In this document: one piece after another, positions 42,082-42,546 of the stretch
Layout of the letters: every line of letters begins with the position of its first letter
How positions within the stretch are numbered: the stretch's first letter is position 1
NCBI GenBank assembly: GCA_001820725.1
Contig: MHQR01000037.1
Span: 1-44,547, forward strand
DNA: 44,547 bases
Direction: 5' to 3'
From: Candidatus Sungbacteria bacterium RIFCSPLOWO2_01_FULL_54_21
GTDB taxonomy: Bacteria; Patescibacteriota; Minisyncoccia; Sungbacterales; HO2-52-23
Notes under the pieces: model-generated
What the model saw: only the letters and a program-made list of their open reading frames with translations
Databases searched by the model: none
Told to the model about the DNA's origin: nothing
Program-made: the position numbers and the translations under genes

Positions 42082-42546
42082 CTGTATGATACTTCGAGCC
42101 GTGAGATTGCTGATTGAGCTCGAAGATTACTGACAATTTCGCGGTTCCAAAACCTTTATCCCCACACCTATGCATAGGTGTGGGGGTTTATTTCTCGTGT
42201 ACGGAATTCCGTCGGGGAATAATAATCTTTGGAACCGCGGGCGCGTTTCGGGCCGCAGGTCAAACCATTGCCGGCCGAGATCGCGTAAAAAGGCAGTGGC
42301 GTAGGCCAAGGCGGCTTCGATATCAAACTGGTCAATCTTGCATTCGGCCATTGATATCTTTACGGCCGCCACCTGGTTGTCCATTTCCTGCTTTCGTTCA
42401 AGAAATTCTTCTTTTGTATAAGACCCGTCCTCTCGCATTTCGCAAATGCGTTTTTTCTTTCCCTCAAGCTCGGCAAGCCGAACTTCATATTGTTTCGCCT
42501 CTATTTCAAATTTTGCTTTATTTTCCATTTTCATATTCATGCTCAT
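42082..42546 (-). pseudogene. C-terminal remnant of large serine recombinase, interrupted by a palindromic insertion
   Basis: Coiled-coil + ATAFLRDLGRQWFDLRPETRPRFQRLLFPDGIPYTRN, then out of frame after the palindrome: DKGFGTAKLSVIFELNQQSHGSKYHT running into tRNA-Ala. Confidence 0.75.
42160..42186. mobile_element. 27-bp palindromic element (CCCCACACCTATGCATAGGTGTGGGGG) flanked by 5-bp direct repeat TTTAT
   Basis: TTTAT 42155-42159 and 42187-42191; excision with one TTTAT restores recombinase ORF. Confidence 0.75.

Follow-up and report, generated by a model that had tools for sequence, protein, structure and literature searches.

A 28-bp palindrome in a decayed Sungbacteria recombinase gene as a probable micro-element of a GIY-YIG-coding family

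Introduction

Beside a tRNA-Ala gene of Candidatus Sungbacteria bacterium RIFCSPLOWO2_01_FULL_54_21, the remnant of a recombinase gene is broken by a short palindrome whose arms recur at the ends of a nearby element encoding a small GIY-YIG nuclease. This raises the question of whether so short a unit moved as an element of its own, was left behind by a longer one, or serves the genome as a functional site. We address it with the window, that is, the whole stretch of 44,547 nucleotides that was analysed (contig MHQR01000037.1), together with copies of the palindrome and of the nuclease gene in other genomes.

Results

An insertion in a recombinase remnant

The features discussed here are collected in Table 1. 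The recombinase remnant is 52–62% identical to its homologues, most of which are full-length (520–571 aa), and a Pfam search of the fragment itself returned no match. The dead element to which the recombinase belonged probably integrated at the adjoining tRNA-Ala (GGC) gene. The initial annotation proposed that the palindrome was inserted in this gene and that removal of 32 nt restores the expected tail, and both proposals are borne out. The 32-nt deletion joins ...FPDGIPYTRNK to GFGTAKLSVIFELN, and the homologues L159–L162 (52–62% identity) cross the site uninterrupted. The DNA of L162 carries neither the palindrome nor the repeated TAAA ahead of GGTTTTGGAACCGC, and its sequence gaaAAAGGTTTTGGAACCGCAAAATT closely matches the predicted empty site AATAAAGGTTTTGGAACCGCGAAATT; insertion and duplication are therefore backed by comparison, beyond the reading frame alone. 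On these sequence comparisons, insertion of the palindrome with a target duplication is well supported. The "precise excision" described earlier holds in the sense that removing 32 nt restores the frame; this is a formal operation only, as we saw no allele from which this copy had been excised.

Table 1. Positions of the palindrome and its neighbours in the window
Feature	Position	Strand	Basis or remark
tRNA-Ala (GGC)	42011..42082	+	abuts the recombinase remnant
Large serine recombinase, C-terminal remnant lacking the catalytic N-terminus and split by the palindrome	42104..42546	-	homologue alignment
Target duplication TTTA, left copy (TAAA on the recombinase strand)	42155..42158	.	
28-bp micro-palindrome (C>T)CCCCACACCTA-TGCA-TAGGTGTGGGG-G	42159..42186	.	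sequence, copy comparison
26-bp palindrome CCCCACACCTATGCATAGGTGTGGGG	42160..42185		
Target duplication TTTA, right copy	42187..42190	.	
69-bp MITE-like unit of the second family, CCCCGTTAGAGA...TCTCTAACGGGG	42607..42675	.	imperfect flanks TTGA/CTGA
TCAA duplication flanking the GIY-YIG element	42728..42731 and 43022..43025		
290-bp GIY-YIG element, 20-bp terminal inverted repeats CCCCCACACCTAATTTGCTT	42732..43021	+	0.55 kb from the palindrome
GIY-YIG nuclease gene, 86 aa	42752..43012	+	PF01541, E 5e-18
Fic/DOC-family gene	43042..44094		directly 3' of the GIY-YIG element

The plus strand from 42155 to 42191 reads TTTA T CCCCACACCTATGCATAGGTGTGGGG G TTTA T, and the palindrome consists of two 12-bp terminal repeats around a 4-nt centre. 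Its boundaries are fixed by a sister copy on a Niyogibacteria contig (L078, 506–531), where the same palindrome is found at the corresponding position of a recombinase remnant that has decayed further and abuts a tRNA-Ala (TGC) gene. The sister palindrome keeps a C:G terminal pair; the unit is therefore 28 bp long and its target duplication TAAA. A 27-bp unit with a 5-bp duplication, as first annotated, is thus wrong on the evidence of the sister copy and of the copy survey below: the apparent fifth repeated base arises from a C-to-T change at 42159, which is the element's own terminal base. Over 221 bp the two loci share 89% DNA identity, and on this ground we attribute the shared position to common descent and reject two separate homing events into this site of the recombinase. 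No intact homologue with the same 32 nt was found; the sole carrier found is L078, itself decayed, which shares them by descent. The palindrome folds into a hairpin with a 4-nt loop (-12.2 kcal/mol as mutated), or -14.7 kcal/mol with intact ends and one flanking base per side.

Ends shared with a GIY-YIG element

The suggestion that the palindrome is a relative of the nearby GIY-YIG element also stands, because its arms are the termini of that 290-bp element. The window contains four occurrences of the 11-mer CCCCACACCTA with at most one mismatch, where shuffled sequences predict 0.18. They are the two palindrome arms and the two element termini, and these are also the only exact occurrences of the 11-mer in the whole 767-kb genome. 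No further palindrome within 3 mismatches occurs elsewhere in that genome.

The GIY-YIG fold of the 86-aa protein is clear from Pfam and from one UPF0213 structure (1zg2), and its catalytic residues Y5, Y16, G18, R26, H30 and E50 are invariant. Inverted repeats scoring at least 14 flank the gene at 25 of 58 GIY-YIG loci, which were drawn from the best matches and are not a census (one of the 25 was fetched twice), compared with 0.07% of shuffled flanks. Most of these repeats start with runs of C, and across 30 elements differences between the repeats follow differences between the nuclease sequences (Mantel r=0.54, p=0.0002).

Of 389 genomes sampled from the phylum, 266 contain relatives of the gene, and 17 of 18 palindrome-bearing genomes hold a GIY-YIG gene; because the genes are this common, co-occurrence alone is a weak link. 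One genome (G389) contains a complete 303-bp GIY-YIG element together with 26-bp palindromes and with derivatives of 96–136 bp whose inner ends are similar. No GIY-YIG element that we found matches the window's micro-palindrome exactly at its inner terminus, TATGCA.

A second family repeats the pattern. Palindromes of the CCCCGTTAGA type occur in 15 of 379 genomes, with up to nine copies each, and carry 4-bp repeats in 9 of 19 cases (1.1 expected). GIY-YIG genes with ends of this family are found as well, and most of them group together by protein sequence.

Copies at other loci

The survey recovered at least 124 distinct palindrome copies, mostly from Patescibacteria. Among the copies listed, the arms are perfect over 11–13 bp and amount to terminal inverted repeats. 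Counted with one extra terminal pair, 62 of the 124 listed copies have exact 4-bp flanking repeats, where swapped flanks predict 6.4; only 7 exact repeats were obtained at 5 bp, and we rejected a 5-bp duplication accordingly. The outer bases of the repeat are complementary in 60 of the 62 (TATA, TTTA, TAAA, CAAG, CTTG, TTGA, TCAA and others), and past the 4-bp duplication no clear target motif emerged among the listed copies. The expectation that the window's palindrome itself would recur between direct repeats held for the loci and failed for the length: the 26-mer is present at 22 loci, 11 of them with exact repeats (3.0 expected), of 4 bp and not 5 bp. A WOR-3 genome has 15 near-copies of the 26-mer, and G389 has 8.

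The signal is concentrated in named Patescibacteria, in which 48 of 87 listed copies have exact repeats (6.8 expected), against 1 of 19 listed copies from other phyla or viruses. Mobility is not established for the copies in other phyla, some of which may be misbinned or due to chance. Two very large viral contigs (L126, 290 kb; L127, 208 kb) hold palindromes with the same arms.

Changes in the arms are concerted. Among 31 variants listed by hand, 10 concerted changes were counted, where independence of the arms predicts 0.53, which suggests copying of one arm from its partner by way of a hairpin.

A statistic for restoration of open reading frames over all copies gave no signal (medians 70, 74 and 64), probably because most copies lie outside genes, so that only individual genes are informative. 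Micro-palindromes lie within five recognisable housekeeping-type genes (L006 at 1501, L010 at 3889, L014 at 2908, L018 at 1389 and L107 at 3163), where they add 30–42 nt, a multiple of three in 5 of 5; they therefore look like tolerated in-frame insertions. At another locus (L011, 5501–5590), a micro-palindrome with a CAAG duplication is nested in the palindrome CCCGCACACTTATTG, which itself has TATA repeats. Two copies on one contig (L108, 1140 and 2338) share their left flank, and their central trinucleotides point in opposite directions, as though the unit had been inverted.

Discussion

We propose that the palindrome is probably a 28-bp non-autonomous micro-element, the minimal member of a GIY-YIG-coding family, mobilized in trans and possibly by way of a hairpin. 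The MITE-like reading given in the initial annotation gains support from the uninterrupted homologues, from more than 100 further copies with flanking repeats, and from the termini shared with GIY-YIG elements. In the proposed sequence of events, the palindrome would have entered a YWWR-type target (TAAA/TTTA), with a 4-bp duplication, in the serine recombinase gene of an integrative element, which in at least two lineages would later have settled next to tRNA-Ala and degenerated. The coding member of the family would be the element of about 290–300 bp, with a single GIY-YIG nuclease gene within the same termini. Its protein may recognize the termini and cut both target and element; the mobile form could be a hairpin or fold-back strand in which one arm is copied from the other; and micro-palindromes would have arisen by internal deletion and moved in trans. 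A role of the nuclease in movement is indirectly suggested by the co-variation of termini and protein and by gene content. Characterized GIY-YIG nucleases leave 3' overhangs of 1–2 nt, which by themselves give no 4-bp duplication, and the duplication therefore needs an explanation.

The main rival, which we consider unlikely and less likely than mobilization in trans, is that these units are deletion relics: a full GIY-YIG element would have inserted and lost the interior between its ends, and the 28-bp unit would never have moved. The termini and duplication of the palindrome do match those of full elements, intermediate derivatives of 60–136 bp exist, and the self-complementary TGCA could have served as microhomology for a deletion. 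However, the identical 26-mer at 22 unrelated loci would require the same deletion and the loss of the parent every time, and G389 and G391, with 8–15 near-copies, show no longer element with a TATGCA terminus. A smaller probability attaches to the idea that the ends are recognized by the product of a gene located elsewhere, such as a DDE transposase, with the GIY-YIG gene as a passenger. Two points speak for this idea: several DDE transposases typically produce 4-bp target duplications, and a Parcubacteria genome with about ten palindromes (G393, locus L015), the exception among the 18 palindrome-bearing genomes, has no detectable GIY-YIG gene. Against it, the four CCCCACACCTA copies in the window's genome are accounted for by the palindrome and the GIY-YIG element, the termini co-vary with the GIY-YIG protein sequence, and the CCCCACACCTA pairs listed across the 18 genomes hold a GIY-YIG gene or have no room for a gene, with no other pair seen that could accommodate a different one.

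That the palindrome is a functional site fixed by selection, such as a terminator, an operator or an RNA hairpin, and is not mobile, seems to us very improbable at this locus. It folds well, and palindromes can serve as terminators or operators, but here it interrupts a reading frame that has a clean empty site in homologues, flanking duplications are far above chance, and further copies lie within housekeeping genes. For the Patescibacteria copies, the empty-site and duplication data contradict a functional role, which may yet apply to some of those in other phyla.

The trans-mobilized micro-element that we favour resembles a MITE in being non-autonomous, in its terminal inverted repeats, short target duplication and dispersed copies, and in having ends common to a coding element. 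It differs in being far shorter, at 28 bp essentially two ends, and in its presumed partner: the coding elements that we found with such ends contain a GIY-YIG gene, whereas MITEs depend on a known, usually DDE, transposase. REPINs are likewise paired palindromic units mobilized in trans by a chromosomal nuclease-type enzyme. That enzyme, RAYT, is of the Y1/HUH type and REPINs lack a target duplication, whereas our palindrome is linked to a GIY-YIG enzyme and flanked by a 4-bp duplication; no Y1 (HUH) transposase was found inside elements with the palindrome's ends. Rickettsia palindromic elements also reside in genes, including in-frame in housekeeping genes, as do the copies in all five recognisable genes here. 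They are longer (about 100–150 bp), and we know of no GIY-YIG partner for them. GIY-YIG homing elements share the catalytic domain and enter one long conserved site by homologous repair, whereas the units described here occupy many unrelated 4-bp targets with duplications; some GIY-YIG elements nonetheless sit in tRNA, rnpB and 16S genes.

The nearest functional analogues are the GC clusters of yeast mitochondria. Together with related double-hairpin elements, they too are mobile, GC-rich palindromes only tens of bases long that carry short direct repeats, and intron endonucleases have been proposed as their helpers (PMC4478555). They differ in being organellar and in having AG or ACT repeats in place of 4 bp, and the passages concerned describe no coding element with the same ends (PMC4478555).

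Our search of the open-access journal literature found no account of bacterial GIY-YIG elements with inverted repeats, and the micro-palindromes apparently belong to a large undescribed set of tiny Patescibacteria mobile elements. Tentatively, and with slightly more doubt than confidence, we raise the possibility of a new class of DNA transposon, which would encode only an 80–90-aa GIY-YIG nuclease, have C-rich inverted repeats and a 4-bp duplication, and move units down to 28 bp, close to the least that a mobile element can measure, by way of a self-templating hairpin that keeps the arms identical. If the GIY-YIG nuclease does mobilize these units, a very common family of small Patescibacteria genes gains a function. 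The minimum size for mobile elements would fall to about 28 bp, and yeast mitochondrial GC clusters would have a bacterial counterpart.

The same reading, if true, would offer an explanation for insertions in the rRNA genes of the CPR, where GIY-YIG insertions unlike introns have been described together with unexplained short insertions that lack an ORF (PMC11270868). Two elements of our set (L138 and L154) lie within 16S rRNA genes and are insertions of this kind; that paper does not mention inverted repeats or palindromes (0 text matches) and draws no tie to micro-palindromes elsewhere. Other GIY-YIG elements are located at the 5' ends of rnpB, encoding RNase P RNA (L136, L141 and L151), and of tRNA genes (L133, L135 and L305). 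At the tRNA and rnpB sites, the terminal GGGG of the element seems to restore the beginning of the RNA gene.
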